Source: Primulina eburnea (lineage: Eukaryota; Streptophyta; Magnoliopsida; Lamiales; Gesneriaceae). Taken from it: 64,000 bases of DNA. The notes under the pieces are model-generated. The model searched no databases. It was not told the origin of the DNA and saw only the letters and a list, made by a program, of their open reading frames with translations. Below, piece by piece: positions 3,477 through 60,210 of this stretch; within the stretch, counting starts at the first letter, position 1, and every line of letters begins with the position of its first letter. Position numbers and translations under genes: made by a program. Location of the stretch: the NCBI RefSeq assembly GCF_022965805.1, contig NW_027330954.1, positions 1 through 64,000 of the forward strand, given 5' to 3'.

Positions 3477-5378
3477 TGTGGGGACCCGGGCTCTAACTCA
3501 ATTCTTTCTGAGATTAATTGGATCTTTGTTCGAAAATGTGGGTCATAAAAAAATTTCTTTTAACATAATTCAAATGTATATAAACATGCACAAGGTCTTT
3601 ATTTATTTTATTTCTACAAACATAATATACATGTCTTGTCCAGTACATATTCAACAAACCAGTATTCAAATACAGTACATGACAAAAGTACAAACTACTA
3701 GTACATCTGCTATGCCCGTGATCACCACGCTATATCCATCTCTCACCTCTGTTGCGACCCAGATCCTGCCCTACCTGTTGTTATCCACACATACCGACAC
3801 AACAACAGCCGGAAACTCCGGTGAGAACAAATCCCAATATAAAACATGTATACATGCATGTCATATAATTTCATAATCAATCATAATACATGTTTCAGTA
3901 ATTATGTCACATTAATAAATACAGATAAAACAATCATGCACATAATCAATAACAATACGTCTCATAATTTAGGAAACGTAATTCATACTATTCAAACTCA
4001 TATCTTGACTCAACTCGTATCTAACTCTAGGGATCCCGGTGTGAATAAGATGTAACAAGTCTCCCACATACTCTCCCATTCGGGGTGGCGTTACATCTTA
4101 TTTCTAGACTTCGGTCCTGACTGTATCGAATATCTACAATCGGAGTGATTCTGATCCGAAGCGTCGACACCACCGAACGTCTAGTTATTTGGAGAATCTA
4201 CCAAATGACTCACCTATCTTAAAAGGCTTGAATATGAATCTATAAACAAAGCATAAGCATTCAAAATATAACCAACAATCTAGTATGTGATTTTGTTGGG
4301 AAACTCAAATTGAATCTCATTTGAGTTGTGTCTTCCCAAAACAAAACATGAAATATACCTTTCGTTGTTAAACCTTTATCGATGTCTTGGTCTCGATGTC
4401 GAAGTGAGGCAAGATGAATCTGAAATGGCAATGTTCAATAGATATAAGATTAACATTCAACTCAACCAATAAATGTACGAATCAATATTCATTTTCGGTA
4501 CATTTCGACGGCATAACGACGTGATCTTGTAATACCAAATCAACTCCAATATCAATACTTCATATCAATAACTCATAACCACTATCATATATACTTCAAA
4601 CTCTGAAATTCTGCATAAGCTCATACATATATATGCTGGAAATTCATAACAATTGCATACGATAGTATTTCTTCGATCCGATTACGAATAAACGTTCACT
4701 ATAATCATAAGAACAAATAATAACAATCAAACTCTGATTTCCCCAATCATCTCAACTCCAAACATGCTGAAAAGTGATAATACTTACATCCTTTGGTAGC
4801 TTGAAGCAAGAGAAGCACAAATATGGATTCGGATTCAAGATCGGGTGGTTGGATTTTGCACAATCACTTTTCTACTATGGCATGAAGCTTAAAAACATTC
4901 TTCCTTGGTAGCTCTCAGTGGTTTCATTTCTGAAGAAGTGCGGAATAGAGGTCAAGATACATTTTAAATGATGTCCAAGACATATGTCAACTTTGTATGC
5001 ATGCTGGACTTCTCGCGCATATGCGCGTCCTCAAATCGCGCATATGTGCGAGACATACTGTCTCGGCAATGTTTATTTCAACACCTCGCGCATATGCTCG
5101 CTTCATATCGCTCATATGCGCGTATCTACTCGCGCATGTGCGCCAATGTTTCTGGAAATGTCGCGCATATGCGTGCCTTATCTCGCACATATGCGCGAGG
5201 GCTTCTGGACCCCTCGCGCATCTGCGTGTATTTCTTCGCGCATGTGCGCTGCCGCTTGTCCTTTACACCACTTTTGTATATTTTCTCGTCTCTTCCGGTC
5301 CGATACAATGCACTTATAATCATCTTAATTATCAACAAAACAAATCTGATTATGATAATCAAATTCTCGGGCCTTACA
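3477..5378 (-). repeat. element A 3' LTR (complete, ~1.9 kb)
   Basis: On the minus strand this LTR starts TGTAAGGCCCGAG and ends CCCCACA, i.e. TG...CA. It is followed by the polypurine tract on its internal side. It matches 11086-12336 for its first ~1.25 kb in window coordinates. The part present only here (4739-5378) carries the U3 palindrome array. Confidence 0.9.
5014..5249 (-). promoter_or_regulatory. U3 array of nine CGCGCATATGCGCG-type palindromes
   Basis: Nine 13-14-bp sites close to the perfect palindrome CGCGCATATGCGCG start at 5014, 5037, 5087, 5109, 5131, 5162, 5184, 5215 and 5237. Step sizes are 23, 50, 22, 22, 31, 22, 31 and 22 bp, i.e. near 2, 3 or 5 helical turns. The array is in U3, upstream of the presumed transcription start on the minus strand. 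The TATA region is weak (TTTAAAAT near 4960). I infer a protein-binding array; no factor is identified. Confidence 0.75.
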
Positions 5379-7901: not shown

Positions 7902-7910
7902 GACAATAAA

Positions 7911-8381: not shown

Positions 8382-8712
8382 TGCGTATCTCTTGCACAGA
8401 AGTCGACCTCGGCAAACTAATTACAGCTTCAACTTTACTCGGATCCACAGAAATACCATCTCCAGATATGATATGCCCAAAAAACATAACCTGTCTCAGC
8501 CAAAACTCGCACTTTGACAATTTAGCATATAATCTCTCATTTCTCAATGTCTGTAATACAATTCTTAAGTGCTCGGCATGATCAGTCTCATTTCTCGAGT
8601 AAACTAGAATATCATCAATGAAAACAATAACAAACTCGTCTAGATATCTCTGAAAGACACAGTTCATCAATCCCATAAACACCGCTGGTGCATTCGTTAA
8701 ACCAAAAGGCAT
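8356..8712 (-). pseudogene. element A RT palm (first copy, cut by duplication)
   Basis: The ORF starts [17 protein letters not shown] and has the catalytic FIDDILVYS. It runs to [12 protein letters not shown], then continues out of frame into the second repeat copy (GRSASST) and stops. It is in the gag frame. The end of the protein is an artefact of the duplication junction at 8380/8381. Confidence 0.87.
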
Positions 8713-8721
8713 GACAATAAA

Positions 8722-9192
8722 CTAGTATTGTCCATACCTGATTCGGAATGCTGTCTTCGGTATATCAATATCTCGTACTCGCAGCTGGTGATATCCGGAT
8801 CTCAAATCAATCTTTGAATTGACAGAGGATCCCTGCAACTGATCAAATAAATCATAGATGCGAGGCAATGGATATTTTTTCTTCACCGTCGCCTTGTTCA
8901 GTTGCCGATAGTCAATGCACAATATCATCGAACCGTCTTTCTTCCGTACAAATAGCACTGGTGCACCCCAAGGAGATACACTCGGTCTGATGTAACCCTT
9001 GGCCAACAGATCTTCAAGCTGGGTTTTCTGTTCTTTCAATTCAATAGGCGCCATTCTATACGGAGCTCGAGATATGGGAGCTGTACCTTGTATAAGATCG
9101 ATGCTGAAATCTACCTCTCGAACTGGAGGTAACCCTGGAATCTCGTCTGGGAATACATCGGCAAACTCATGTACTACTGGCAGATCTGCCAA
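8722..9192 (-). pseudogene. element A RT N-terminal part (first copy)
   Basis: Near-identical to 7911-8381 ([20 protein letters not shown] to FRIRYGQY), in the same frame as gag and protease upstream. It ends at the same stop codon before MPFGLTN, so that stop predates the duplication. Differences from its twin include [11 protein letters not shown] for [11 protein letters not shown]. Confidence 0.88.
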
Positions 9193-9237
9193 TGCTGGGC
9201 TCGATTTCAGTAGATCTACTGAATATATAAGGAACCC

Positions 9238-18742: not shown

Positions 18743-18827
18743 TGTAGTAGCCCGAATTCCAAATTGGGTAATTAACGGAGTAATGGTGATTAAGAAGGTT
18801 TAATGTGTAATTTTGACCGAGTCATGA

Positions 18828-19038
18828 TCGGACGGACCGAAGATGGTTCGGAAGCACCGAAGAGTTCGGAAGGTCCGAAGTGGGTTCAGTGGATCCGATC
18901 ATGAGGTGTCAAGAGCAGCTGGACACGTGCATGTTCGGACGGTCCGAAGTGTATGATCGGAGGATCCGATCATGAGCTGTCAAGAGCCAATGGACACGTA
19001 GCGTTCGGACGTTCCGAAGTGTTGTTCGGAGGATCCGA
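18828..19038 (+). promoter_or_regulatory. U3 array of TCGGA-N3-TCCGA palindromes (element S 5' LTR)
   Basis: Eight 13-bp sites of the form TCGGAcgGTCCGA (TCGGACGGTCCGA, TCGGAGGATCCGA, TCGGACGTTCCGA) start at 18828, 18848, 18866, 18886, 18935, 18957, 19005 and 19026. Steps are 20, 18, 20, 49, 22, 48 and 21 bp. A CACGTG G-box lies between pairs at 18924-18929. The last site ends 8 bp before the TATA box. I infer a promoter-proximal binding array. Confidence 0.78.
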
Positions 19039-19046
19039 ACATGGCC

Positions 19047-19054
19047 TATAAATA
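19047..19054 (+). promoter_or_regulatory. TATA box of element S 5' LTR
   Basis: TATAAATA in context GGCCTATAAATAGTGC, right after the palindrome array. Transcription would start about 30 bp downstream. The 3' LTR has the same box at 20809-20816. Confidence 0.8.
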
Positions 19055-20176
19055 GTGCTCGGATTTCTCATTTTTGACTTGCCAATTTCTTGAGTTTTCT
19101 CTCATTTTGGAGAGTTTGGAAGGTTCCAGGGTTAAGTTGTTGGTCGAGCGATAGCCAAGAGCTGCCAGGAGTAGTAGCGTAGCGGCGCCTGAGTTTCGAG
19201 GCAATCGACATCAAAGGGCTGTCGACGGACGAAGGTAAACCCTAAACCTTTGGTAGTACTAGGGAGTACTGGTTTTGCTAGTCGAGCATGGTAGTATTGA
19301 TTGAGTATGCTTTTGATGCGTAGGCTTGTGCTAGACCTGATTAGCGGTGTTGCGTAAGGATAGGCTTGCTGTGATAGAGGTACGAAAGTACTATCCGAGA
19401 TATCCTGGTTGAGTATACATTCTTATATGTGTTGCATGATTATGTGGTGCATTGTTATATGTCATATGACGCATGCTATTATGTCACGTTTATTACTGCA
19501 CGTTGCATTTCATGTTGAGCCGTACCTCCTTCGAGATAGCCTTTACTGTTGAGCTGTATCTCTTTCGAGATAAGCTATATCTTGGGGCCGCTCAGCCCTG
19601 TCTTGTGGACGCATGGACACCGAGAGTACACAGTGGCCGACGGGTCGGGAGGGCTTCGGTGGTCCGGGACATTTTAGGTCCACGTCTGTCTTGTAGTGGA
19701 TGCAGTGACCCAGAGGTGTACCGCGCGGCACTATCCACTTGGCGCCTCTAGACTGAGCATTGTTGAGATCCTTTTGTGACTCCTGTTTCTTGACTACCCC
19801 GGTATCATGATCATAGCATGTGCATTTCATATAGGTCTGTATACTCATACTTTTGTACTGGGCGTTCTTATCGCTCACGTCCTCGGTTTTGTTTATTCTT
19901 GGACACCCCATTCCCACGGGGCAGGCCTCAGGTTGGACAGCTCAGGAGGAGCAGGAGGAGGACAGTGAGTATCTGGTTGGTTTAGTTTTCAGTACTATTC
20001 TATTTCGATATGGTTGTATTGGGTATTTTAATTGGAGTTATTCTAGACTTCGATTGAGTTGTATAACCATTATTTTGTTGACTTTTCCTGCTGTTATCTC
20101 TGATTATTGTTAATTAGGTTAATTGCATGCTTAGTTCTTGATTAGTAGGTGATTCTGGAACGGGTCACTACATTTA

Positions 20177-20188
20177 TGGTATCAGAGC
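20177..20188 (+). promoter_or_regulatory. element S primer-binding site
   Basis: TGGTATCAGAGC, complementary to initiator tRNA-Met, 4 bp after the LTR end. Confidence 0.9.
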
Positions 20189-20272
20189 ATGCGTACGATT
20201 TTGGGATATAGATTTCTGTTTTGGGATTTCCGTTGACCAATTTACTAGTTTCCCCATTCTATTGTTGTAGCA

Positions 20273-20425
20273 ATGGCTGACCACTTTGGTGATGAGAGTA
20301 GTCAGGGGAGTGTAGGTCGTTGGGGTGACCAGGACGATCGTAGACGTCATTCTTTCCGTTTCTACTCCGATGGGTCATTCGGTGTTAGCGAAGCGTCTAG
20401 TGATGGGTTGTCCTTTAGATTTTGA
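20273..20425 (+). CDS. short ORF in element S leader (possible gag remnant)
   Basis: A 50-codon ORF starting MADHFGDESSQGSVGRWGDQ and ending LSFRF before TGA. Its position after the primer-binding site suits a Gag start, but I cannot match it to a Gag domain. It may be the N-terminal stub left by the deletion that removed gag-pol. Function unknown. Confidence 0.4.
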   Translation: MADHFGDESSQGSVGRWGDQDDRRRHSFRFYSDGSFGVSEASSDGLSFRF

Positions 20426-20490
20426 GGGTAACGATGTTGTTATTTCGTTTTGTTCATCCTCTAAGCTTGATTTCGAGGACGAAATCGTTT

Positions 20491-20504
20491 TAAGGGGGGG
20501 AGAA
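20491..20504 (+). promoter_or_regulatory. element S polypurine tract
   Basis: TAAGGGGGGGAGAA immediately before the 3' LTR, preceded by TTTCGAGGACGAAATCG, the motif found at this place in elements A, B and C. Confidence 0.88.
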
Positions 20505-21933
20505 TGTAGTAGCCCGAATTCCAAATTGGGTAATTAACGGAGTAATGGTGATTAAGAAGGTTTAATGTGTAATTTTGACCGAGTCATGATCGGACGGACC
20601 GAAGATGGTTCGGAAGCACCGAAGAGTTCGGAAGGTCCGAAGTGGGTTCAGTGGATCCGATCATGAGGTGTCAAAAGCAGCTGGACACGTGCATGTTCGG
20701 ACGGTCCGAAGTGTATGATCGGAGGATCCGATCATGAGCTGTCAAGAGCCAATGGACACGTAGCGTTCGGACGTTCCGAAGTGTTGTTCGGAGGATCCGA
20801 ACATGGCCTATAAATAGTGCTCGGATTTCTCATTTTTGACTTGCCAATTTCTTGAGTTTTCTCTCATTTTGGAGAGTTTGGAAGGTTCCAGGGTTAAGTT
20901 GTTGGTCGAGCGATAGCCAAGAGCTGCCAGGAGTAGTAGCGTAGCGGCGCCTGAGTTTCGAGGCAATCGACATCAAAGGGCTGTCGACGGACGAAGGTAA
21001 ACCCTAAACCTTTGGTAGTACTAGGGAGTACTGGTTTTGCTAGTCGAGCATGGTAGTATTGATTGAGTATGCTTTTGATGCGTAGGCTTGTGCTAGACCT
21101 GATTAGCGGTGTTGCGTAAGGATAGGCTTGCTGTGATAGAGGTACGAAAGTACTATCCGAGATATCCTGGTTGAGTATACATTCTTATATGTGTTGCATG
21201 ATTATGTGGTGCATTGTTATATGTCATATGACGCATGCTATTATGTCACGTTTATTACTGCACGTTGCATTTCATGTTGAGCCGTACCTCCTTCGAGATA
21301 GCCTTTACTGTTGAGCTGTATCTCTTTCGAGATAAGCTATATCTTGGGGCCGCTCAGCCCTGTCTTGTGGACGCATGGACACCGAGAGTACACAGTGGCC
21401 GACGGGTCGGGAGGGCTTCGGTGGTCCGGGACATTTTAGGTCCACGTCTGTCTTGTAGTGGATGCAGTGACCCAGAGGTGTACCGCGCGGCACTATCCAC
21501 TTGGCGCCTCTAGACTGAGCATTGTTGAGATCCTTTTGTGACTCCTGTTTCTTGACTACCCCGGTATCATGATCATAGCATGTGCATTTCATATAGGTCT
21601 GTATACTCATACTTTTGTACTGGGCGTTCTTATCGCTCACGTCCTCGGTTTTGTTTATTCTTGGACACCCCATTCCCACGGGGCAGGCCTCAGGTTGGAC
21701 AGCTCAGGAGGAGCAGGAGGAGGACAGTGAGTATCTGGTTGGTTTAGTTTTCAGTACTATTCTATTTCGATATGGTTGTATTGGGTATTTTAATTGGAGT
21801 TATTCTAGACTTCGATTGAGTTGTATAACCATTATTTTGTTGACTTTTCCGCTGTTATCTCTGATTATTGTTAATTAGGTTAATTGCATGCTTAGTTCTT
21901 GATTAGTAGGTGATTCTGGAACGGGTCACTACA
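20505..21933 (+). repeat. element S 3' LTR
   Basis: 1429 bp. It is the 5' LTR with a one-base deletion (CTTTTCCGCTG for CTTTTCCTGCTG) and a G-to-A change (GTCAAAAGCAG). The palindrome array is at 20590-20800 and the TATA box at 20809-20816. Confidence 0.93.
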
Positions 21934-23804
21934 GTTGTTTACACCGATGCGTCGAAGAAAGGTCTTGGTGCAGTGCTGATGCAGCGTGGAAAGGTCATAG
22001 CTTATGCTTCTCGCCAGTTGAAGGACTATGAGAAGAATTATCCCACACATGATTTGGAGCTGACAGCTGTGGTTTTCGCCCTAAAAATAAGGAGACATTA
22101 CTTATATGGCGAAAAGTGTGAAATTTTCACGGACCACAAGAGTTTGAAGTATTTGTTTTATCAGAAAGAACTCAATATGCGACAGAGACGGTGGTTAGAG
22201 CTTGTCAAAGATTATGATGTGTCGATTAGTTACAACCAAGGGAAAGCGAATGTTGTAGCAGATGCATTGAGCCGTAAGTCGGGTTCTTCTTTGAGTTCGA
22301 TGATTCAGCAGCCGTTGTTGTCGGACTTGCAGCGAGAGGATATAGCTTTAGTAGTCCCAGGAACCATTGCTCGCTTTCCAGCATTGTTCATTCGGGCTAC
22401 ATTGACGGACATGATCCGTAGTGAGCAGGTCAATGATTTTCAGTTGACAGAGTTGAGAGCCAGAGTAGAGGAGAGAGGTAATTCAGATTTTCGGTTGAAT
22501 GGAGATGGTTTGGTGACAATCAGAGGCCGTATTTGTATTCCTGTTGGTGATGATATTCGACGAGACGTCTTGACAGAGGCAGATACCGCGCCATATTCGA
22601 TACATCCAGGCAGCACCAAGATGTATCAGGATCTTCGTAGACTCTATTGGTGGTCAGGTATGAAGAAAGATATTGACATGTTTATTTCTCAGTGCCTAAC
22701 TTGTCATCAGGTGAAGATCGAGCACCAGAGACCCGCTGGGACATTGCTGTCAATGTCCCTGTCATTGCCGATTCCTCAATGGAAATGGGAGCATATTATG
22801 ATGGACTTCATGACTGGTCTACCCAGAACGCAGAAAGGTTTTAACTCTATTTGGGTTATTGTTGATCGGTTGACCTAGTCAGCGCATTTTCTTCCAGTCA
22901 AGACGACGTATTCCAAGAACCAGTATGCTGAAGAGTACATAGCAAAGATTGTTAAACTTCATGGTGTTCCTGTGTCGATCGTGTCTGATCGTGACCCTAG
23001 ATTTACTTCAGAGTTTTGAAACAGTTTGCACAGAGCTATGGGTTCACGGTTAGCATTCAGTAAAGCATATCATCCCCAGAGCGAAGGTCAATTAGAGAGA
23101 GTTATTCAGATTCTAGAGGATATGCTCAGAGCTTGTACTATCGATTATCCTGGTAGCTGGGATTCCAAGCGACGATTGGCATGGCACCGTATGAAGCACT
23201 TTATGGCAGAAAGTGTAGATCGCCCTTGAATTGGGACGAGATTGGTGAGAGGAAGATGTTGGGTCCAGAGTTGGTCCAACAGACAGCTGATGTTGTTGCT
23301 GTTATTCGAGAGAGGGTGAAGACAGCACAGTCGAGACAGAAGAGTTATGCTGATGTCCAACGTAGGCCATTGCAGTTTGAGGTTGGAGACCATGTGTTTT
23401 TGAAGATTGCACCTCTTAAGGGTGTGATGCGGTTTTGAAAAAAGGGAAAGTTGAGTCTGAGATTCATTGGCCCATTTGAGATCTTGGATAGAGTTGGTGA
23501 TCGAGCTTACAGGTTAGCCCTACCGCCAGATCTTGATAGAGTTCATAATGTTTTTCATGTCTCCATGCTCAGGAAGTATATTGCGAATCCTTCCCATGTT
23601 CTTCGCCACGAGTCATTGGATTTGACGCCGAATTTGACGTACCAAGAGATTCCGGTTCAGATTCTGGATCGCAAAGTTAGATTATTGAGAAAAATAGAGA
23701 TCGGTATTGTTAAAGTCCTTTGGAGGAATCATTTGATCGAAGAAGCCACGTGGGAACCAGAGGATGGGATGAACGAGAAATATCCTGAGTTTTTTGCGCA
23801 GTGA
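21934..23804 (+). pseudogene. C1 RNase H, integrase and chromodomain
   Basis: Continues C1 pol after element S: RNase H ([34 protein letters not shown]), zinc domain ([15 protein letters not shown]), integrase core ([26 protein letters not shown]), C-terminal domain and chromodomain ([19 protein letters not shown]). Breaks: TAG after IVDRLT (shared with C2), TGA in place of Trp in SEFW (~23018), a 49-bp deletion after WDSK, and TGA in GVMRF*KKG (~23436). It ends FFAQ before the polypurine tract. Confidence 0.9.
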
Positions 23805-23844: not shown

Positions 23845-25599
23845 TGTAAAATCCAGCCTTGTGAACGGTACGGTCTAAGATTTCATATGATTATTGACTA
23901 TTTGGTCGAGTATAGTATGGTTTGGATGTTAAGGATCTTGATTTATGGTTTATAGTGTTGATGTTTTTAGTTGTTGTGTGGCGATTATTGTAGCGTCGTT
24001 ACGATTTGATTTATGGTAATTTGTATGTTGAGTTGATTGGTATGAGATCAATTGGAGTGGTTAGATATGTTATAGATGTGCAACTTCCTTGTTGAGTGTG
24101 TGGCCGAATTATGAAGAGAAGTGACGTTGCGATTCGATTTTTGTTGCATAGAGTTTGTTGTTTGCTCTAGGTGACAGTGCACCCGCGCTCAAGAGAATAC
24201 CGCACCCGCGGTATTTAATTCAGATTTTTGATGAGATTACGGAAGACACACCGCACCCACGGTGTGAAGGTTACCGCACCCGCAGTTGTCATGTTTGGAT
24301 TTTTGGTTGGATTGCCGAAGGCATAGCGCACCCGTGGTCCATTTAGGAGCACACCCGCAGTCGTCATTTTGGGATTTTAGGATGAGTTGCCGAGATCATA
24401 GCGCACCCGCGTTGAAGAAGGCAGCGCACCCGCGGTCTGTGAACAGTAGAAACGTGTTTTAGCGATTTAAGTGATTTAAATGGAAGAGTTGGCTCATTTC
24501 TCTCATTCTTTCTTCATTCTTCTCGATTCTTCTCTTAAAGGGAGAGCTAGGGTTCCATTCTTTTCATTTCATATCTTTGATTCAAGCTTGTTGTTGGTTA
24601 TTTGTGGTGAGAACAAGGTTCTTGTTGGTTCTAGAAGCTAAGGTAAGCTTGTGGCTTTGATTATTTCTTGGTTTTGGTGATGGGAGAAGTATTGGGTTTT
24701 TGATGGTGTTGGTTTTATGTATTTAATGGTATGGGTTTGTGATTATTAAGTTATTAATTGTGCAATGCATGGTTTATTGTTGTAGGATTGCTACCAAGAG
24801 ATTAGATACAAGGTTCCAAGTGGTTGTAAGTGGAATTTCATTCCTTGTGCTCACATGATAATATATGTATGGTGTTTCAATGGTTTTAATGTGCTATTCC
24901 CTTCATTTGATTCATGTTATGTATTGATACACTTTGTTGTATATTATGTAGACATTTATGTCTCAATTGCGAAAAGGGAATACAAGAGAAAAGATTCTTC
25001 AAAGTGTTTGATAAAATGCCAAAGAGAGAGTTCAAATGATTTATGGATTGATAGATACATAGTCAAAGATTTCATGCAATTAGTTGATCAACGACCATAG
25101 GCTTATATCCCTCAGAGTTATCGATGTATATCGATGGGATATAGGTACAGAGACAGAGATACTATATAGATATCAATCCAACAGAGAAAAGAGAAATACC
25201 ATCTTATTGTTATATTGCTATGTTATTCATGTTCCAAGAGTTGATGGTATTTAATGATTTCAAATCCATGTTTGATATATATCCATTGTTATGTAAGAGT
25301 TCCACTTGCTGAGTTTTATACTCATTTCAGTTATTTCATGTGATGCAGATAAGAGTGACGAGCCGGGACGTTGATTGGAGCCGGGGTCATATGCATACCA
25401 TAGATGGGAATGGAGAAGATATTTTGATAGCATTTTTGGACATGATCACAAAAATGATATTTTGTATTTTTGTTGTATCATTTGATTGATCATGTATATA
25501 CTTTTAATTATATATAGAAATGTATTTTAAATCCTTCTTTCTTTTTAGAAAATTTTAAATTCCGCTGTTATTTTACTAAAACCGATCAGAGGTGTCACA
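23845..25599 (+). repeat. LTR C2, complete (shared middle LTR)
   Basis: 1755 bp, starts TGTAAAATCCAG and ends GGTGTCACA. It serves as 3' LTR of C1 and 5' LTR of C2. The palindrome array is at 24176-24436. Its R/U5 part resembles the solo LTR at 53733-55540. The ORF at 24855-25100 in it has no recognisable domain. Confidence 0.92.
24176..24436 (+). promoter_or_regulatory. U3 array of ACCGCACCCGCGGT-type sites (LTR C2)
   Basis: Eight 14-bp sites near ACCGCACCCGCGGT (arms ACCGC/GCGGT) start at 24176, 24199, 24250, 24273, 24325, 24348, 24400 and 24423. Steps alternate strictly: 23, 51, 23, 52, 23, 52, 23. The unit is therefore a pair of sites repeated every 74-75 bp. The spacers between pairs share GATTTTTGG...TTGCCGA, so the units arose by tandem duplication. 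A weak TATA region (GATTTAAG) follows at about 24465. Confidence 0.8.
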
Positions 25600-25616: not shown

Positions 25617-25734
25617 CACGTTCTTCGGACCAATGCATATGACTTCGTCTAATTTCAACGGTCCGGGTACGTCTTCTTCTACATCTATTCATCGTTATCT
25701 ATTGATATGTATTTTGTGAGCACATTGTAGGAGT

Positions 25735-28113
25735 ATGCCTCCTAAGAGAAAGGCTTCAGAGGGTGATGATAGTTCTTCCTCGAAAGTTGTCGACGAGTTC
25801 GGTAAGTTACTGAAAGAGCAAGCCAAGGTCCATAGTGAGCAGATTCAACAGTTGCTACGTTTGCAAGGTACAGGTCAAGGTAGAGGTCAAGGGAGATGCC
25901 AAGTGGCTCAAGCAGTTGGAACTGATGGGATCTTTACTGCTTTCAAGAGGATGGATCCGCCTGAATTTGCAGGAAGCACTGATCCTTTGGTGGCTATAGA
26001 GTGGATCAAAGCTCTTGAGGCGATTTTCGATCATCTCTACTATGAAGACAAGGACAGAATCAGTTGTGCAGTGTTCATGTTAGTCAAAGCTGCACGCATT
26101 TGGTGGAATGTTACCAAGGTTAGTGTGGATGTTCCGGCATTGAAGTGGCAAGAGTTCACTGATCTTTTCTATGACAAGTACTTCCTAGATGCATTTCGAG
26201 CTCGGAAGGTGACTGAGTTTTTGGAGATTCGTCAAGGAGGTATGAATGTTGATGAGTATATTCTGAAGTTCGAGGAAGGCTATCTATTTGCCCCGTATAT
26301 TGCCTCCAATGACAAAGACAAGGGTGCTCATTTCATTAGAGGCCTTAGAGCAGAGATCAGAAAGGACATTAACATGTCGAAGGCGGTGACATTCAAAGAG
26401 ATTGTGGCTAAGGCTTTGTTGGCCGAGCAAGATGAGAAAGACATTGCCAGAGAGAGACAGGCGAGGCAGCAGGCTATTGCTCAAAGGGGTCAAGGTTCAA
26501 AACAAAGAAGAAAAGTCAATTTCAAGGGGAAAGGCAAGTTAGAGCCGAGTCCTAAACCACCGGAAGTTCCATTTGATCCTGAGAAGCCATTGTGTCCCAA
26601 GTGCAGTAGACATCATCCGGGAGAGTGCAGATTTGGTACTCATACTTGTTACCGATGTGGCACTGCAGGCCATATTGCCAAAGACTGTCCAAGAAGAGCG
26701 AGTAAAGAGAAGGTACAGGGTCGCATCTTCACCATGACGAAGGAAGGTATAAACCATGATTCTTCTATGATCTCTAGCACTATTTTAATTTCAGTCAGAG
26801 TAGCTACGACATTGATTGATACAAGTGCTAATCATTCTTTTATGTCTGAACTATTTTTAAGGTCTTTGGGCATAGTTCCTTCTGTTCTTCCCCTCCAATT
26901 TAATGTTGTATTGCCTTCTGGGGATGTGTTGTGCCCGACATCTATTGTGTATGCGTGCTCTATTCAAATTGATGACCGAGTGGTTTATGCCAATTTGATT
27001 GTTATTCCAATGGTTGCATTTTATATTATACTTGGCATGGATTGGCTATCAAACTATCATGCAATGATTGATTGCGTTGCTAAGACGGTGAAATTTGCAG
27101 ATGATGGCAATAGGGAAGGTATGCTCGCCAGTGCAGGTACTTTGCTGGTCCTTCCTTTTATTTCGTGTGTTGAGGCTAAGAAGTTGTTGTTTAGAGGTTG
27201 TGATGGGTTTTTGGCTTCGATTGTGGATGTGGATAGAATTGTGAAGTTGAATATTGATGATGATATTGTGAGAGAGTTTCCTGATGTATTTGAGGATGAT
27301 GTTCCGGGTTTGCTGCCGGACAGAGAAGTCGAGTTTGTGATTGATTTAGTTCCAGGTACGGTTCCTATTTTTAAGGCTCCGTATAGAATGGCCCCTTCAA
27401 AGATGAAAGAGTTGAAGTCGCAGTTGCAGGATCTTTTGGATAAAGGTTTTATTCGGCCGAGTTCTTCGCCTTGGGGAGCTCCGGTTCTTTTTGTCAAGAA
27501 GAAAGACGGGTCCTTGCGGCTTTTCATTGATTACAGTGAGATCAACAAAGTGACCATCAAAAATAAATATCCGTTGCCACGGATAGATGATCTTTTTGAT
27601 CAACTTCAGGGGGCTACAGTGTTTTCGAAGATTGATCTGCGATCTGGCTATTATCAGTTGAAGGTTAGGGAGTCTGATATCCCTAAAACGGCGTTCCGGA
27701 CCAGGTATGGTCATTATGAATTCCTTGTGATGTCTTTTGGTCTGACTAATGCTCCTTCAGTCTTCATGGATCTGATGAACCGAGTGTTCAAGCCGTATTT
27801 GGATAGCTTTGTCATTGTTTTCATCAATGACATATTGATTTATTCCAAGACCATAGAGCTTCATTCAGAGCGCCACAGAGTTGTTCTTCAGTTGTTGAGA
27901 GAGAAGAGGTTGTATGCTAAATTGAAGAAATGTGATTTCTGGTTGGAGCAGATTTCTTTCTTAGGCCATGTTTTCTCGAAGGATGGTATAGTTGTTGATC
28001 CAGTGAAAATCGAGGCGATTCAAAAGTGGCCTATTCCTATTACAGTATCAGAGGTACGCAGTTTTCTTGGTTTGGCGGGTTATTATCGTCGTTTTATTTC
28101 ACATTTTTCTTAG
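25735..28113 (+). CDS. C2 Gag-protease-RT polyprotein (partial)
   Basis: A 792-residue open frame starting [12 protein letters not shown], 119 bp after the primer-binding site. Order: Gag ([27 protein letters not shown]), zinc knuckle [15 protein letters not shown] (~305-319), protease (~362, LIDTSAN), RT (~540-792; [25 protein letters not shown]). Two key motifs are altered: protease DTSA instead of DTGA, and RT FIND (~696-699) instead of FIDD, which removes a metal-binding Asp. It ends at TAG after RFISHFS; the rest of pol continues in other frames. A Tekay/Del-like chromovirus. Confidence 0.93.
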
Positions 28114-28427
28114 ATTGCCCTGCCATTAACCAATCTGACTAGGAAGACTGTGAAGTTTGAGTGGTCCAATGATTGCCAAAGTTGATTTCAAGAGTTGAAG
28201 GATAAGTGACGACAGCTCCAGTACTTGCATTGCCCAGTGGTTCAAAGGACTTTGTTGTTTACACCGATGCGTCGAAGAAAGGTCTTGGTGCAGTGCTGAT
28301 GCAGCGTGGAAAGGTCATAGCTTATGCTTCTCGCCAGTTGAAGGACTATGAGAAGAATTATCCCACACATGATTTGGAGCTGGCAGCTATGGTTTTCGCC
28401 CTAAAAATATGGAGACATTACTTATAG
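28114..28427 (+). pseudogene. C2 RT thumb to RNase H start
   Basis: After the stop the frame continues IALPLTNLTRKTVKFEWSND, meets a second stop (CQS*FQELKDK), then loses one T near 28206 compared with C1. The shifted frame gives [20 protein letters not shown] through ALKIWRHYL, the RNase H start. Another base is lost near 28424 (TTATAGG for TTATATGG). Confidence 0.88.
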
Positions 28428-29197
28428 GCAAAAAGTGTGAAATTTTCACGGACCACAAGAGTTTCAAGTATTTGTTTTCTCAGAAAGAACTCAATATGCG
28501 ACAGAGACGGTGGTTAGAGCTTGTCAAAGATTATGATGTGTCGATTAGTTACAACCAAGGGAAAGCGAATGTTGTAGCAGATGCATTGAGCCGTAAGTCG
28601 GGTTCTTCTTTGAGTTCGATGATTCAGCAGCCGTTGTTGTCGGACTTGCAGCGAGAGGATATAGCTTTGGTAGTCCCAGGAACCATTGCTCGCTTTCCAG
28701 CATTGTTCATTCGGGCTACATTGACGGACATGATCCGTAGTGAGCAGGTCAATGATTTTCAGTTGACAGAGTTGAGAGCCAGAGCAGAGGAGAGAGGTAA
28801 TTCAGAGTTTCGGTTGAATGGAGATTGTTTGGTGACAATCAGAGGCCGTATCTGTATTCCTGTTGATGATGATATTCGACGAGACGTCTTGACAGAGGCA
28901 GATACCGCGCCATATTCGATACATCCAGGCAGCACCAAGATGTATCAGGATCTTCGTAGACTCTATTGGTGGTCAGGTATGAAGAAAGATATTGACATGT
29001 TTATTTCTCAGTGCCTAACTTGTCATCAGGTGAAGATCGAGCACCAGAGACCTACTGGGACATTGTTTTCAATGTCCCTGTCATTGCCGATTCCTCAATG
29101 GAAATGGGAGCATATTATGATGGACTTCATGACTGGTCTACCCAGAACGCAGAAAGGTTTTAACTCTATTTGGGTTATTGTTGATCGGTTGACCTAG
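28409..29197 (+). pseudogene. C2 RNase H end, integrase zinc domain and core start
   Basis: Reads [34 protein letters not shown], the zinc region ([33 protein letters not shown]) and the core start ([13 protein letters not shown]) to VIVDRLT, then TAG. The same TAG is present in C1, so it predates the duplication. First catalytic Asp present. Confidence 0.9.
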
Positions 29198-29290
29198 TCA
29201 GCGCATTTTCTTCCAGTCAAGACGACGTATTCCAAGAACCAGTATGCTGAAGAGTACATAGCAGAGATTGTTAGTCTTCATGGTGTTCCT

Positions 29291-30163
29291 GTGTCGATCA
29301 TGTCTGATCGTGACCCTAGAGTTACTTCAGAGTTTTGGAAGAGTTTGCACAGAGCTATGGGTTCACGGTTAGCATTCAGTACAGCATATCATCCCCAGAG
29401 CGAAGGTCAATTAGAGAGAGTTATTCAGATTCTAGAAGATATGCTCAGAGCTTGTACTATCGATTATCCTGGTAGATGGGATTCCAAATTGCCTCTTACT
29501 GAGTTCACGTATAATAACAGTTACCAAGCGACGATTGGCATGGCACCGTATGAAGCACTTTATGGCAGAAAGTGTAGATCGCCCTTGAATTGGGACGAGA
29601 TTGGTGAGAGGAAGATGTTGGGTCCAGAGTTGGTCCAACAGACAGCTGATGTTGTTGTTGTTATTCGAGAGAGGGTGAAGACAGCACAGTCGAGACAGAA
29701 GAGTTATGCTGATGTCCAACGTAGGCCATTGCAGTTTGAGGTTGGAGACCATATGTTTTTGAAGATTGCACCTCTTAAGGGTGTGATGCGGTTTGGAAAA
29801 AAGGGAAAGTTGAGTCTGAGATTCATTGGCCCATTTGAGATCTTGGATAGAGTTGGTGATCGAGCTTACAGGTTAGCCCTACCGCCAGATCTTGATAGAG
29901 TTCATAATGTTTTTCATGTCTCCATGCTCAGGAAGTATATTGCGAATCCTTCCCATGTTCTTCGCCACGAGTCATTGGATTTGACGCCGAATTTGACGTA
30001 CCAAGAGATTCCGGTTCAGATTCTGGATCGCAAAGTTAGATTATTGAGAAACAAAGAGATCGGTATTGTTAAAGTCCTTTGGAGGAATCATTTGATCGAA
30101 GAAGCCACGTGGGAACCAGAGGATGGGATGAACGAGAAGTATCCTGAGTTTTTTGCGCAGTGA
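29291..30163 (+). pseudogene. C2 integrase core, C-terminal domain and chromodomain
   Basis: A 290-residue frame with the second catalytic Asp (SDRDPRVTSEFW) and the Glu region (SEGQLERVIQILEDML). Then come the C-terminal domain ([30 protein letters not shown]) and chromodomain ([30 protein letters not shown]), ending FFAQ. Chromodomains are thought to target insertion to marked chromatin. Only the upstream TAG separates it from 28409-29197; this half is intact. Confidence 0.92.
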
Positions 30164-32131: not shown

Positions 32132-32843
32132 AAAAAGACCGCCCGAGCGCCAGTGCACCACAAGATTAGAACTTGGACAGAATTTCTGGCGCCTGAGCGG
32201 TAGAAAATGACCGCCCGAGCTCCAGTGTACAATAAGAATATGATCAGACAGAAAGTTCCGTGCCCGAGTGGTAGTTTTTGACCGCTCGAGCGCCGCTTGA
32301 TGTGTATGAAAAATCAGCCACGTGTCCAGGCCATGCAAGATATATATATATATATATAAGTTAACTTCATTTTCGCCAAACTGAATCAAGAAGAACGAAG
32401 GAAGCTTCAGAAAATCCTTACGCCTTTTCAAGTTTTTGATTTTGATTTGCGAAAGATCTGTCCGTCTGATTTTGAATCTGAGTGCGGTACTGTGATCCTA
32501 TCGACAAAAGCTTCACAAAGACGTAAGTTTTACTACGTTTTGTTATGATTTGAAAATATGATATTGAAGGAATCAGACATGATTAATATATGGTGTTCTA
32601 GATATATTAGACATCGTATAATCGAAATCGGATTGAAGAATAGACATCGTATGAAATTGTGATGATTTTCATAATGGATTTGATTGAGATTTGATATCAG
32701 ATTTGTATTGTTATCAATTACGAGTTGTGGGAATTGATATCTGTTGATTTGAATTGCTGGGTATATTAAGATTCTGCAGTTATGCCGTTAATAGAATTAG
32801 ATTGAATCTTGATTATATCCAGTATTGAATTGAATGGTATATT
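32132..32843 (+). mobile_element. G-type gypsy LTR, left part
   Basis: U3 and R part of a gypsy LTR related in backbone to element B's LTR (CTTACGCCTTTTC, CTATCGAC, GACGTAAGTTTTACTACGTT). The left end is missing and the copia remnant abuts it. It contains the palindrome array (32138-32294) and a TA-repeat TATA region (32341-32358). Element E interrupts it at 32843/61558 with site duplication ATATT. Confidence 0.78.
32138..32294 (+). promoter_or_regulatory. U3 array of GGCGCCCGAGCGGT/ACCGCCCGAGCGCC sites (G)
   Basis: Five 14-bp sites start at 32138, 32188, 32210, 32259 and 32281, with steps of 50, 22, 49 and 22 bp. Within a pair the second site is roughly the reverse of the first (GGCGCCTGAGCGGT then ACCGCCCGAGCTCC), so each pair can form a hairpin with an ~8-nt loop. 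The TA-rich TATA region begins 46 bp after the last site. The same site type is in the solo LTR at 54234-54342. Confidence 0.78.
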
Positions 32844-50238: not shown

Positions 50239-52384
50239 TGTAATGCCCGAGATTTTAATTACTGTAATCTGAGATTAATCTGAAATAATTTATGGATTAA
50301 TTAAGGTAAATATGGACGGAATGGATTAGACCGGGAAAGACGTAAAATATGTGCGATGGAGGTGCCATTTGTGCACATGCGCGACCTAATGCGCGAGCCA
50401 TGCGCGATTTGGCCAGAAGACCCCGCGCATATGCGCGGAGTAAGATGGCGCATATGCGCGAGGTGATCAGTAGCACAAGTAAGAATTCCAGAGAGTTCGG
50501 CGCACATTCACGGTGGAAGGCGCGCATATGCGCGAGTGGTGAGCAGTCCAGTAGCACGGATAAAGCTTCCGGCGCATATGCGTGGGGCTTGGGCGCGCAT
50601 ATGCTCGATGAATGCAATTTGAAAATCGGCCACGTTTTAGTTGCGTGCAAGTTGAGTGTATATATATATATATAAATATATATATATACGATTCTTTCTT
50701 CAGAAATAAGAAAGAAAGGAGAAAGCGAAGAAATGCTGACGCCTTTTGTCTCGTAGATTTGTGAATTACGAGAAATCCGCTCGTTAGAATTTGAATCCGA
50801 CTTCAGTATTTAATTCCTATCGACGCAGACTACAACAGGACGTAAGTTTTGTTACGTTTGAACATGATTTAAAAATATGATATTGTCAGAATTGAATAGA
50901 AATCATTTATGGTGTTTCTGATATAGTATCATCGTATATTTGAAGTCAGAATGAAGAAGAGATTGTTTATGTAATTTTATGATTTTCGGAGTCGATTTGA
51001 TTGAGAATCAATATCAGATTTATTATCGTTGAGATTATGATTAGTACCGATTTTGATTATGAGTTCTGGTACTATATTTGTAATGTTGGGACTGACAGGG
51101 TTATCGAGATTGTATTATTATGCCGTCGAAACATCCATAAATTGATATTGATCAGATTCGGTATTGGTTGAGATTGTATTGTGGTACTATATGTCGATTG
51201 GCATTGATCAGATTATGTTTTGATTTGAGTATTGATCAGAACATGTTTTGAACTGAGTTATATACTGATATTGTATCTATTCGATTGTCATTATCAGATT
51301 GGGTATGGACAGAGTTGAATTCGGGACTTCGTCCTCGTCGGACCGAGAAGATAAAGGTATAAATTAATGTTGAGTTGGGATTGCACAACTCGAGTGAGGT
51401 TTGACTCCAGTTTCCCTAAATCACATACTTTATTTTATTGCATTGTTATTTCCAATTGAATATGATTGATATCTTTGGTCTATGGATGTATAGACAATGT
51501 ATGTCTTGAGTCATAGGCGGAAGTGCCTAGTTGTAGACATTTGATCTTGTGACAGAAGGGCCGGATAATGAGGACTCGTCACTGGCCCATTGCACTTTGT
51601 CGCAGGATAGTGTATTGGTGAAAATGCCAAAGTCTGTGACGGATAGGTCAAGACATCGGACGTTTGGCTATATCGGAGTGGATAGAACTGGAGTCTTTTC
51701 TATTACTGGTGTTCGATATTGAAAGAGCCAAATTCCGTGAATAAGAACATACCACCATCCCGATCGGGAGTGTAGGTGGGTGTATGTTCTTATTCCGATC
51801 GGGATCCCTAGATTAAGACTGAGTCGAGTCTGAGAATCACGGAGAGTGATTCATTACTTGATATTGAATTATGTTCCTGATGATGGTACATGTTTAGAAT
51901 GTGATTTATTCTTGATATTGATTCATGTTTAGGATTATAATACATGTGATGAATATTTGATTCATGTTTCTGATTTTTAATACATGTTAGGGATATCTGT
52001 TATATGATTTTGTATTGTTTTTGTGATTGCATATATACATGGTTTATACTGAGAATATAATTCTCACCGGAGTTATCCGGCTGTTGTCTTGTTTGTATGT
52101 GTGCATGACAACAGGTGGGACAGGATCAGGGTCAAGAAGAGAACGAGGCTGGACTAGATAGCGTGGAGATCCGGGCTCAGAAGTAAATTAGGATTCAGTA
52201 CGGATATGTAGTTGAACCTAGTTGAATTCTCATAGACAATACAAGACTTGTATAAATATGTATTTCGAATTGATTTACATTACGTTTCCGCTTTGTATTT
52301 TAAAAAAAATTAGACCCTGTTTATCATAATTGATTGATTGATTCTAAGAATGATTAGAATTTAATTAGCGTCCGGGTCCCCACA
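50239..52384 (+). repeat. element B 5' LTR
   Basis: 2146 bp, starts TGTAATGCCCGAG and ends GGTCCCCACA. U3 carries the palindrome array and is followed by a TA-repeat TATA region (~50658-50690). It is 52 bp shorter than the 3' LTR, largely because a 66-bp unit with one pair of palindromes is missing. Confidence 0.92.
50370..50607 (+). promoter_or_regulatory. U3 array of CGCGCATATGCGCG sites (element B 5' LTR)
   Basis: Seven sites start at 50370, 50424, 50447, 50499, 50521, 50571 and 50594. Steps are 54, 23, 52, 22, 50 and 23 bp: one leading site, then three pairs. Two of the sites (50424, 50521) match the perfect palindrome. The TA-rich TATA region begins about 50 bp after the last site. Confidence 0.8.
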
Positions 52385-53732: not shown

Positions 53733-55540
53733 TGTAATAGCCGAGCTTGGTGTACGGTGCGGTTTAAGTTTTCATAAGTTTATTGACTATTTGGTCAAGT
53801 TTAAGTATAGTTTGGATGTTAAGAGTTTCGATTTAGGATTTATAGTATGGTTGGTTATAGATTATGTGTCGTGCTATTGTAGCGGCGTTACGATTAAATT
53901 CATGATAATTCGTATGTTGAGCCAATTGGTATGAGGCCAATTGGAGTGATTAGATAAGAGATAAGGCTATAAATTTGTGGTTTTGGGTTTTGTTCAAATC
54001 ATCGTGGAAGGTCAGCCAAAAGAGCCCCGAATTTTGTCGTGTGTGTCGTCATTCCTCCAGTGACATATGTTGGGAGAATGGGCATAACTTTTTACTCAGA
54101 GCTCCAAATGATCTGCACTTTGGAGAGATGCATGAAAAGACATAGGGCTACAACTTTGTAGTTTACCACTTTTTCTAATTCGGACGGGAAGAGGCGTTTC
54201 TGAAGCGATCTTTAACATGGCAGTGCAAAGAGTGGCGCCCGAGCGGTAATATATGGCCGCCCGAGCGCCACCACTTCTGGAGTTTTGGATTTCGGGCAGA
54301 AATGTTGGCGCTCGAGCGGTAATTTTTGACCGCCCGAGCGCCGGGCACAGTATAAGCGTGTTTTGGGTGATTTTAGGCTTTATAACCGATTGGGACACTC
54401 ATTTCTATCATTTCCCTTCTCTTCTTTTCTCTCCTCCAATGTTTCCAAGTAGGGTTCTTCATTTTCTTTTTATCATTTCTTTCAATCAAGCAATTAATCT
54501 TCAATCCGGAGTTAGAACAAGATTATTTTGGGATCAAGGAAGCTAAGGTAAGCTTTTGGTTTGGTTATTTCTTAGTTTTTGGTGTTGGAGATGATACGGG
54601 TTTGTTGATGGTGTTGGTTTATGGATTAATTGATATGGGCTTATGATTATTGAGATGTTGATGGTTCATTATATGGTTTATTGTTGTAGGATTACTACCA
54701 AGAGTATAGAATCAAGGTTTCAAGTGGTTGTAAGTGGAATTTCATTCCTTGTGCTCACATGATAGTATATGTATTGTGTTTCAATGGTTTTAACATGTTA
54801 TTCCCTTCCATTTGATTCATATTATGTATTGATATACTTGTTGGTATATTAGAGGCAATTGAATGTCTCAATTATGTAAAAAGGGAATACAAGAGAATAA
54901 AGTCTTCAAAGTGTTTGATGAAATGCCAAAGAGAAAGTTTAAAAATGATTTATGGATTGATAGATACATAGTCAGAGATTGCATGCAATTAGTTGATCAA
55001 CGACCATAGGCTTATATCCCGACAGAGTTATCGATTTATATCGATGGGATACGAGCACCACAGACAGAGATACTATTGATATCAATCCAACAGAGAAAAG
55101 AGAAATATCATCTTATTGTTATATTATTGCTATGTTATTCATGATTCAGAGTTGATGGTATTTAATGTTTTTAAAGTAATGATTTCAGAGTATGATATAT
55201 ACATTGCTATGTAAGAGTTCCACTTGCTGAGTTTTATACTCATTTCAGTTATTTTCATGTGATGCAGCTAAGAGCGACGGACCAGGACAGTGATCGTGGA
55301 TCGGGGTCATATGCATATAGAGTTGGAAGGAAGGAAGATGTTATTTTATTGTTATTTTGGGACATGATCATAGGAATGATATGTTATTTTTGTTGTTATA
55401 TCATTTGAATGATCATTTATTTATTTTGGTTGCAAATATTTTGTAAATGATTTTATGCTATGGTATTGTAATCCTTCCATCCTTCAATTGAAAATTTTAA
55501 ATTCCGCTGCATTTTAATTGTAACGGGTCAAGGTGTCACA
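53733..55540 (+). mobile_element. solo LTR inside element B
   Basis: 1808 bp, TGTAATAGCC...GGTGTCACA, flanked by perfect ACTAA duplications at 53728-53732 and 55541-55545. Removing it restores the B protease frame region. The backbone resembles LTR C2 (ACTATTTGGTCAAG, AGTTCCACTTGCTGAG), but its U3 array is the GGCGCCCGAGCGGT type seen in G. It is a product of LTR-LTR recombination after insertion, and one of the later events in this nest. Confidence 0.95.
54234..54342 (+). promoter_or_regulatory. U3 array of GGCGCCCGAGCGGT sites (solo LTR)
   Basis: Four 14-bp sites at 54234, 54256, 54307 and 54329, with steps of 22, 51 and 22 bp. Within each pair the sites are inverted (GGCGCTCGAGCGGT then ACCGCCCGAGCGCC), giving strong hairpin potential. 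TATAA occurs at 54381, 38 bp after the last site. Confidence 0.8.
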
Positions 55541-58012: not shown

Positions 58013-60210
58013 GTAATGCCCGAGATTTTAATAACTGTAATCTGAGATTAATCTGAAATGATTTATGGATTAATTAAGGTAAATATGGACAGAATGGATT
58101 AGAGCGGGAAAGACGTAAAATATGTGCGAGGGAGGTGCCATTTGCGCACATGCGCGACTTAATGCGCGAGCCATGCGCGATTTGGCCAGAAGACCCCGCG
58201 CATATGCGTGGAGTAAGATCGCGCATATGCACGAGGTGATCAGTAGCACAAGTAAGATTTCTAGAGAGTTCGGCGCACATGCACGGCGGACGGCGCACAT
58301 ATGCGCGAGTGGTAGAAAGCACGAGACAGTAGGTCTCGCGCAGATGCGCGACTTATGTGTGCGCATATGCACGAGCAGTCCAGTAGCACGGATAAAGCTT
58401 CCGGCGCATATGCGCGGGGCTTGGGCGCACATTTGCGCGACTCATGCAATTTGAAAATCGGCCACGTTTTAGTTGTGTGCAAGTTGAGTGTATATATATA
58501 TATACGATTCTTTCTTCAGAAATAAGAAAGAAAGGAGAAAGCGAAGAAATCCTTACGCCTTTTGTCTCGTAGATTTGTGAATTACGAGAAATCCGCTCGT
58601 TAGAATTTGAATCCGACTTCAGTATTGAATTCCTATCGACGCAGACTACAACATGACGTAAGTTTTGTAATGTTTGAACATTATTTAAAAATATGATATT
58701 GTCAGAATTGAATAAAAATCATGTATGGTGTTTCTGATACAGTAGACATCGTATATTTGAAGTCAGAATGAAGAACAGATTGTTTATGTAATTGTTATGA
58801 TTTTCGGAGTCGATTTGATTGAGAATCAATATCAGATTTATTATCGTTGAGATTATGATTAGTACCGATATTGATTATGAGTTCTGGTACTATATTTGTG
58901 ATGTTGGGAATGACAGGGTTATCGAGATTGTATTATTATGCCGTCGAAACATCCATAAATTGATATTGATCAAATTCGGTATTGGTTGAGATTGTATTGT
59001 GGTACAATATGTCGATTGGCATTGATCAGATTATGTTTTGATTTGAGTATTGATCAGAACATGTTTTGAACTGAGTTATATACTGATATTGTATCTATTC
59101 GATTGTCATTATCAGATTGGGTATGGACAGAGTTGAATTCGGGACTTCGTCCTCGTCGGACCGAGAAGATAAAGGTATAAATTAATGTTGAGTTGGGATT
59201 GCACAACTTGAGTGAGGTTTGACTCGAGTTTCCCTAAATCACATACTTTATTTTATTGCATTGTTATTTCCAATTGAATATGATTGATATCTTTGGTCTA
59301 TGGATGTATAGACAATGTATGTCTTGAGTCATAGGCGGAAGTGCCTAGTTGTAGACATTTGATCTTGTGACAGAAGGGCCGGATAGTAAGGACTCGTCAC
59401 TGGCCCATTGCACTTTGTCGCAGGATAGTGTATTGGTGAAAATGCCAAAGTCTGTGACGGATAGGTCAAGACATCGGACGTTTGGCTATATCGAAGTGGA
59501 TAGAACTGGAGTCTTTTCTATTACTGGTGTTCGATATTGAAAGAGCCAAATTCCGTGAATAAGAACATACCACCACCCCGATCGGGAGCGTAGGTGGGTG
59601 TATGTTCTTATTCCCATCGGGATCCCTAGATTAAGATTGAGTCGAGTCTGAGTCTGAGAATCACGGAGAGTGATTCATTACTTGATATTGAATTATGTTC
59701 CTGATGATGGTACATGTTTAGAATGTGATTTATTCTTGATATTGATTCATGTTTAGGATTATGATACATGTGATGAATATTTGATTCATGTTTCTGATTT
59801 TTAATACATGTTAGGGATATCTGTTATATGCTTTTGTATTGTTTTTGTGATTGCATATATACATGGTTTATACTGAGAATATAATTCTCACCGGAGTTAT
59901 CCGGCTGTTGTCTTGTTTGTATGTGTGCATGACAACAGGTGGGACAGGATCAGGGTCAAGAAGAGAACGAGGCTGGACTAGATAGCGTGGAGATCCGGGC
60001 TCAAAAGTAAATTAAGATTCAGTACGAATATCAAGTTGAACCTAGTTGAATTCTCATAGACAATACAAAACTTGTATAAATATGTATTTCGAATTTATTC
60101 ACATTACGTTTCCGCTTTATACTTAAAAAAAAAAATTAGACCCTGTTTATCATAATTGATTGATTAATTCTAAGAATGAATAGAATTTAATTAGCGTCCG
60201 GGTCCCCACA
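58013..60210 (+). repeat. element B 3' LTR
   Basis: 2198 bp, TGTAATGCCCGAG...GGTCCCCACA. The palindrome-array part differs from the 5' LTR at roughly one base in twenty by eye; the remainder differs less. Confidence 0.92.
58143..58439 (+). promoter_or_regulatory. U3 array of CGCGCATATGCGCG sites (element B 3' LTR)
   Basis: Nine sites at 58143, 58197, 58220, 58272, 58294, 58337, 58360, 58403 and 58426. Steps are 54, 23, 52, 22, 43, 23, 43 and 23 bp: a leading site and four pairs. The pair at 58337/58360 is absent from the 5' LTR. Confidence 0.8.

Follow-up and report, generated by a model that had tools for sequence, protein, structure and literature searches.

Probable promoter-proximal arrays of paired palindromes in Ty3/gypsy long terminal repeats of Primulina eburnea: a common spacing with exchangeable site sequences

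Palindromic boxes in plant long terminal repeats (LTRs) have been described for Sireviruses (Ty1/copia), whose RM boxes are family-specific and lie in multiple copies in the upper half of the LTR, shortly upstream of a conserved TATA (PMC2829016). These boxes form CpG islands, different nuclear factors were suggested for them, and RM was called Sirevirus-specific among the copia elements compared (PMC2829016). A second system is that of the VANDALs, DNA transposons with their own VANC gene, in which arrays of short lineage-specific motifs occupy non-coding parts of the element and the motifs turn over by tandem repeats; the VANC motif has nine bases and a single orientation (PMC5735166). The arrays reported here share with the Sirevirus boxes the palindromic form and the presence of several copies in the LTR, and with VANDAL/VANC the arraying of short lineage-specific motifs in non-coding DNA of a plant transposon; they differ from both in their carrier, which is the LTR of a gypsy and not a copia element. 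Their geometry also resembles that of lambda-type operator pairs, at which dimers of a bacterial repressor bind cooperatively to adjacent sites about 23 bp apart, and the likeness is one of geometry only. From the available parts of these sources, the Sirevirus boxes are the closest described system. The original prediction had named no earlier description, and this needs correction for palindromic boxes upstream of TATA, which are known from copia Sireviruses; a gypsy case, a spacing rule and an exchange of box types between homologous LTRs were not met in the available part of that article (PMC2829016), nor was helical spacing met for VANC motifs in that of PMC5735166. A spacing rule or comparable gypsy arrays were likewise not met in the open-access literature, which omits most subscription journals, and the motif words matched two papers there, both bacterial.

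The window analysed here, positions 1-64,000, is one whole contig (NW_027330954.1) of the Primulina eburnea assembly GCF_022965805.1 (812 Mb, 1224 contigs). Its arrays are collected in Table 1. The eight 14-bp sites of LTR C2 and their quoted steps were reproduced exactly, also in the sister LTR, and so were the step series quoted for the B, solo, G, S and A LTRs, with the step of 54 in B2 divided into 12 and 42 by one weak site. In the first S array, two of the eight sites carry 3-4 mismatches. Judged from the sequence, these are probably promoter-proximal arrays in the U3 of Ty3/gypsy LTRs for a host dimeric factor, paired on one face of the DNA, with lineages that swap sites and keep the scaffold. 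On this reading a sequence-specific DNA-binding protein would occupy each 14-bp palindrome as a single dimer; dimers would be joined two by two, 22-23 bp apart, into presumably cooperative units, and these units would be stacked on one helix face at 4, 5, 6 or 7 turns. In one large LTR group, TATA would follow the last site at about 49 bp. The putative factor would belong to a host transcription factor family, with activation assumed as its effect, and LTR lineages would hold the geometry while repeatedly exchanging the whole set of recognition sites.

Table 1. Arrays and associated features in the window (steps in bp between site starts).
Feature	Position	Strand	Details
LTR C2, Ty3/gypsy	23845..25599	+	Self-BLAST and LTR comparison; sister LTR starts ~30204
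c-type array in C2	24176..24436	+	Eight 14-bp ACCGCACCCGCGGT-like sites, four pairs; starts 24176, 24199, 24250, 24273, 24325, 24348, 24400, 24423; steps 23, 51, 23, 52, 23, 52, 23
c-type array, sister LTR of C2	30535..30795	+	Steps identical to C2
C element ORFs	25720..30163	+	Gag, zinc knuckle, protease, RT in 25720-28113; frame 28373-29197; SH3_Tf2-1 in 29198-30163
b-type array (CGCGCATATGCGCG) in LTR B2 (50239-52386)	50370..50607	+	Steps 12, 42, 23, 52, 22, 50, 23
Proximal promoter block after B2 array	50609..50680	+	GCCACGT, TGCAAG, TATATATA; homologous block beneath some c/g arrays
b-type array in LTR B3 (58012-60212)	58143..58439	+	Steps 54, 23, 52, 22, 43, 23, 43, 23
b-type array, LTR A (minus-strand element)	5014..5250	-	Steps 23, 50, 22, 22, 31, 22, 31, 22
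g-type array of G	32138..32294	+	Steps 50, 22, 49, 22; site strand alternates
g-type array of solo LTR (53733-55540)	54234..54342	+	Steps 22, 51, 22
s-type array (13-bp TCGGACGGTCCGA) in S LTR (18743-20175)	18828..19038	+	Steps 20, 18, 20, 49, 22, 48, 21
s-type array in second S LTR (20505-21936)	20590..20800	+	

Arrays of this kind were also found by a motif-free scan for at least four similar GC-rich palindromes, which covered 314 kb (the window and 25 loci of 10 kb at round-number genome positions). The scan returned 21 arrays, seven in the window and 14 in the 25 sampled loci; every stretch was also shuffled 20 times under a first-order Markov model, and no array appeared in any shuffle. 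Two of these arrays belong to both LTRs of one element (L032), and another, with TCGCTAGTAGCGA palindromes at steps of 31, 58 and 31 (L024:4485-4618), was excluded from later counts; we take it to resemble a DNA-transposon repeat. Six site types are distinguished (a, b, c, g, h and s), and each array contains a single type. Across 25 arrays of the six types, a set that excludes L024 and the second S LTR, steps of 19-24 bp make up 90 of 158, the commonest short step being 22-23 for b, 23 for c, 22 for g and h, 20-22 for s and 20 for a. Neighbouring steps alternate between short and long in 108 cases, and 14 are short-short, one long-long and 10 involve other steps. The h type (TCCGCCCGGGCGGA) is represented by 22-bp pairs that adjoin a gypsy pol (L030:9682-9944).

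Within the pairs, c sites nearly all have the same orientation, and all five of the g arrays have paired sites that mirror each other; each g pair is therefore a larger dyad, in which two GGCGC-like half-sites lie on the outside and two GCGGT-like ones on the inside. In 97 c sites, a set that excludes the window's own arrays (L001 and L002), arms and centre are both conserved, with 90-96 of 97 sites agreeing at 11 of the 14 positions and fewer at positions 2, 3 and 13, and the ACCC centre is conserved like most arm positions; the selection of both this set and the 78 b sites at no more than four mismatches inflates apparent conservation. The c site has either C or G at positions 2 and 13, and 15 C-to-T changes fall on position 3. 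The b sites begin with C or G and have T or C at one centre base. The CGG-CCG core of the Sirevirus RM boxes, in the available part of that description, is present here in the s type (TCGGACGATCCGA); the c, g and h types are CCGC/GCGG-like and b has no such core. By eye, the linkers that separate one pair from the next in b and g arrays (e.g., 58310-58340) often have a GACAGWANGTY-like box just before the pair, and c arrays contain CCGAAGCA-like words.

The pattern of change within sites bears on whether the palindromes act in DNA or in RNA. With 5-bp arms and 3-4 bp centres they could fold as hairpins in the transcript and serve as a source of siRNA, in dimerisation or in packaging, as has been argued for maize Sirevirus palindromes, and Sirevirus LTR palindromes are small-RNA hotspots according to the available parts of two reports (PMC5311732, PMC10760457). 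Among the b sites, 59 changes affect one arm and a single one is a complementary change of both arms, and substitutions that would still allow G.U pairing in the sense RNA are not favoured (16 vs 14 in c sites; 8 kept vs 14 lost in b sites). RNA-level hairpins were rejected for this want of G.U asymmetry and for the lone compensatory change; they also leave aside a c-site centre that is as conserved as the arms, a 10.5-bp spacing ladder and a fixed TATA distance, the last two being features of DNA, and are highly improbable as an explanation. One-arm decay and the missing G.U preference are more in keeping with half-sites for a protein on DNA than with stems in RNA.

The promoter context was examined by means of the TATAWAW motif. 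Of 30 b/c/g arrays, with sister LTRs counted apart, 18 have it 45-58 bp 3' of their last site (17 at 45-52 bp), and in the other 12 it was not found at that distance. Since some array ends were set by hand, these distances may err by 1-2 bp. In the first set of 17 b/c/g arrays, the motif lies at 45-58 bp in eight (seven at 45-52 bp) and at 90, 95 and 133 bp in three; the remaining six gave no copy within 160 bp. Ten of the 13 targeted arrays have the motif at 46-52 bp. The figure of 18 of 30 is preferred to 15 of 17, as that subset admitted targeted arrays only with TATAWAW 40-60 bp away (10 of the 13) and its eight others were hand-picked. The original prediction that all arrays lie upstream of the TATA region thus holds in part; beside the arrays of C2, the solo LTR and A, no TATAWAW was found within 160 bp on either side. 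Between the last site and TATA, most b- and c-type sequences compared have CCAC near +22 and GCATG near +38, and two g-type sequences have CCAC and CATGCA. A proximal block with an ACGTG-like box, CCAC, GCATGCA and TATATATA is common to many b/c/g LTRs (50609-50680; L022, L025, L032, L035-L046), and its boxes resemble ACGT-type (ABRE) and RY (CATGCA) boxes, like the ABRE/RY pairs of seed promoters. In s-type arrays, TATAAATA follows the last site by 7-8 bp in two of three cases and by 39 bp in the third.

Site pairs are abundant throughout the genome. Exact c-core pairs (CCGCACCCGCGG, gap 2-30 bp) number 11,065 + 10,602 = 21,667, and exact b-core pairs (GCGCATATGCGC) number 20,300 at gaps of 2-30 bp and 18,045 at gaps of 31-60 bp; as the b pattern is self-complementary, both strands list identical places. 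Reversed c and b pair patterns, searched in the same genome as a control, gave no matches. The same c and b patterns matched viral_contigs once (step 36) and not at all, respectively, which is uninformative on other plants. Linkers and spacings were taken from the first 100 places listed, on one chromosome. For c, these contain 61 distinct linkers in 34 clusters (<70% identity between clusters), with steps among the matches listed of 23 in 20 clusters, 24 in five, 22 in one, 17-20 in four and 40-42 in four, the last of which contain an additional imperfect site. For b, 50 listed places gave 41 distinct linkers in 30 clusters, with steps of 20 (1), 22 (8), 23 (11), 31 (6), 41 (1) and 42 (3), and with none at 14-19, 21, 24-30 or 32-40. 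A genome without spacing preference, named at the outset as the outcome that would count against the idea, was not what the listed places showed, given that 40 of the 59 distances from 14 to 72 bp are absent among 100 listed b places.

The mean linker identity at the modal step, among the matches listed, is 0.30 for c (0.27 expected from composition) and 0.25 for b (0.25 expected). The clusters are thus at chance identity and yet have a fixed step, so linker length is kept and linker sequence is not. This bears on the rather unlikely explanation that the arrays are inherited tandem repeats only, in which duplication of a 74-bp ancestral unit bearing two palindromes left the spacing behind as a fossil, free of present constraint. 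Units of about 74 bp do recur, and the inter-pair spacers of C2 are still alike by eye. In a neutral drift model, the within-pair lengths are not improbable by themselves at an indel:substitution ratio of 0.05 (P 0.0026-0.19), so that drift at low indel rates need not alter linkers of 9-11 bp, and P is 0.0051 or less at ratios of 0.1 and above; with rare indels, a fixed linker length does not by itself settle the matter. A fossil spacing is harder to reconcile with conserved sites beside unconserved linkers, with inter-pair length changes that land on other whole turns despite chance linker identity, and with the last site-TATA distance kept in most LTRs of one group. A single recent tandem duplication per family, the other outcome held to count against the idea, is likewise not the whole story, as linker identity is at chance (0.25-0.30) and the six types share steps of 19-24 bp.

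Helical phasing was examined in 30 arrays (17 sampled and 13 targeted) through 68 pair-to-pair distances of the b, c, g and h types. These fall into four classes, 40-43 bp (6), 52-54 bp (20), 63-66 bp (9) and 71-76 bp (33), with none between them, and the classes correspond to about 4, 5, 6 or 7 helical turns. All 68 distances give R=0.76 at 10.5 bp, with a best period of 10.7 bp; the sampled arrays alone give R=0.68 (n=35), the targeted arrays R=0.89 (n=33) and the 26 distinct type-distance values R=0.64. None of 10,000 uniform draws, which ignore the kinship of arrays, matched R in any of these four sets. A phase test of sampled arrays, which took 21 of the 25 and left out sister or truncated copies, gave p 0.0001 for 21 distance values against uniform draws. 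The s type is paired mostly at 19-22 bp and is unphased (R 0.20), so that S shares the pairing attributed to it and not the phasing; when s and a types are added, the distinct-value test weakens to p 0.022. The original prediction of steps near whole helical turns therefore describes the pair-to-pair distances of b, c, g and h arrays, and not the single step of 22-23 bp, which is 2.1-2.2 turns.

A similar ladder of about 10.3-10.5 bp was seen in b-b distances of 14-72 bp among the matches listed, 13 of 50 places being dropped as second copies (R=0.70 at 10.5 bp, phase 0.06, best period 10.3). It is weak for the 18 distinct values, whose best R was equalled by 81 of 1000 uniform draws (again blind to kinship), and the steps of 14-42 bp alone fit best at 9.5 bp (R 0.89, vs R 0.80 at 10.5). 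The distance classes also bear on a chromatin or methylation reading, in which CpG-dense sites every ~74 bp would position nucleosomes or attract or repel methylation with no paired dimer. Each b, c, g, h and s site word does contain three or four CpGs, and 74 bp approximates half the 147 bp of a nucleosome; such a reading is nevertheless very unlikely, given that distances of 52-54, 63-66 and 40-43 bp occur besides 71-76 bp and that the 14-bp sequence is conserved beyond its CpGs.

Homologous LTR bodies carry different site types. The flanks on either side of the arrays of C2 (23845-24067 and 24548-25599) and the solo LTR share 80% identity, and BLAST found no match between them in the middle part, where c sites stand in one and g sites in the other. 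The sequence downstream of the G array is 71% identical to the B LTR over 370 bp, beginning ~45-57 bp after the last site, and an alignment of three sequences extends the likeness up to the last site itself, at which the two have different site words. Further bodies with unlike types are b_L029 and c_L022 (85% over 631 bp), c_w24 and g_w54 (81% over 909 bp), b_w50 and g_L022a (75% over 884 bp) and b_L025 and g_w32 (77% over 412 bp), and other similar bodies carry the same type, e.g., c_L015 and c_L032 (79% over 881 bp). A tree of 18 LTR bodies was built from eight earlier arrays and the 13 targeted ones minus c_L036, c_L037 and b_L047, with the long branch b_L042 kept. It requires at least five type changes, where two is the minimum possible and shuffled labels average 7.5 (five or fewer in 7 of 200 shuffles), and its well-supported branches alone force three changes for b, three for c and two for g. 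Alternative trees of 20 and 10 rows require six and four changes (as low in 15 and 81 of 200 shuffles). Site type is therefore partly inherited, yet was switched several times.

The claim that spacing is constrained and the recognised sequence changes in concert is supported, the concerted change by these switches between homologous bodies and by the single type in each array. Linker 7-mers are shared 63 times within types (6.7 expected) and 49 times between types (17.8 expected); as more are shared within than between types, switching may be a transfer of ready-made arrays. From the sequences, array transfer and change in place are both possible routes. The linker words common to types would also suit the inheritance of tandem repeats described above.

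The source of the putative binder was considered through the coding content of the C element. A Pfam profile search of frames 25720-28113 and 29198-30163 identified Ty3/gypsy gag, protease and reverse transcriptase (RT) domains, and not those of a Ty1/copia Sirevirus; matches to RNase H and integrase zinc profiles came from a related stretch (21910-22875) and not from the C element. The absence of a visible VANC-like gene holds for the C element, the sole element examined in full, in which gag-pol frames occupy almost the whole interval from one LTR to the other. Antisense ORFs of 167 and 170 aa over b arrays were considered as a VANC-like gene and taken as chance, the two being unrelated by eye. 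A VANC-like factor encoded by these or partner elements and co-evolving with the arrays would account for recognition sequences that change blockwise on a constant scaffold, as VANC targets do in the available part of that report (PMC5735166). It is improbable, as the C element has little room for such a gene and the antisense ORFs overlie the array itself. Because the C element has only gag-pol, the factor is most likely from a host transcription factor family, and a host factor would be the simplest source of the putative array binder. Plant-specific LOB-domain (LBD) proteins form a family with many members, act as dimers with a 'molecular calipers' mode, discriminate palindromes and bind GCGGCG (cited in PMC10118128). 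GCGG half-sites occur here in the c, g and h types and not in b and s, and LBD proteins would by analogy be a candidate binder for those three types only.

Elements beside other arrays suggest a wider distribution. SH3_Tf2-1 and Chromo (E 3e-06) were found about 0.5 kb from a b array (L029), and no chromodomain was found by profile in the C frame 29198-30160 or in L030 near the h array. The RT of the gypsy pol beside the h array is 33% identical to the C RT over 118 residues; this divergence implies that the paired geometry may extend beyond one lineage, possibly to a second gypsy lineage. Outside the C family, RT was recovered in only six stretches, of which two form a single tandem duplicate, and lineage assignment is kept at 'gypsy'. 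We tentatively entertain a spacing code, in which LTR promoters of several gypsy lineages could share a stereospecific scaffold of dimer pairs on one helical face, often fixed relative to TATA, plug in different sites and hop among diversifying paired host proteins, escaping repression or competition. If true, it would be a plant host-factor counterpart of the recognition turnover in VANC or zinc-finger arms races. The arrays themselves would form a cis-regulatory grammar of genome-filling repeats, in which a single scaffold is combined with several site sequences and quantised spacing, and exact pairs run into the tens of thousands. This grammar predicts one paired dimeric factor per site type, recoverable with a 37-bp probe. 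The arrays may also expose repeated regulator switching by retrotransposons, in a clean system for studying regulator change in mobile elements, and if host factors are involved they would be ready-made regulatory modules scattered across the genome.

Other repeats were noticed near the arrays. S (18743-21936) is a non-autonomous LTR element, with two 1.43-kb LTRs that are 99.8% identical and ~0.33 kb between them; it is probably a young insertion in a gypsy pol, because its flanks match neighbouring parts of one gypsy pol. A tandem duplication of ~811 bp, 99.4% identical, lies within a minus-strand gypsy pol (7569-9195). Between 1391 and 17692, several repeats, each a few hundred bp long and ~92-97% identical, occur in either orientation, scattered at both ends of the stretch. 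Finally, one sampled locus (L012:3019-10000) contains, beside an s-type array, an extended tandem array whose units measure ~323-364 bp and whose higher-order period is 2465 bp.
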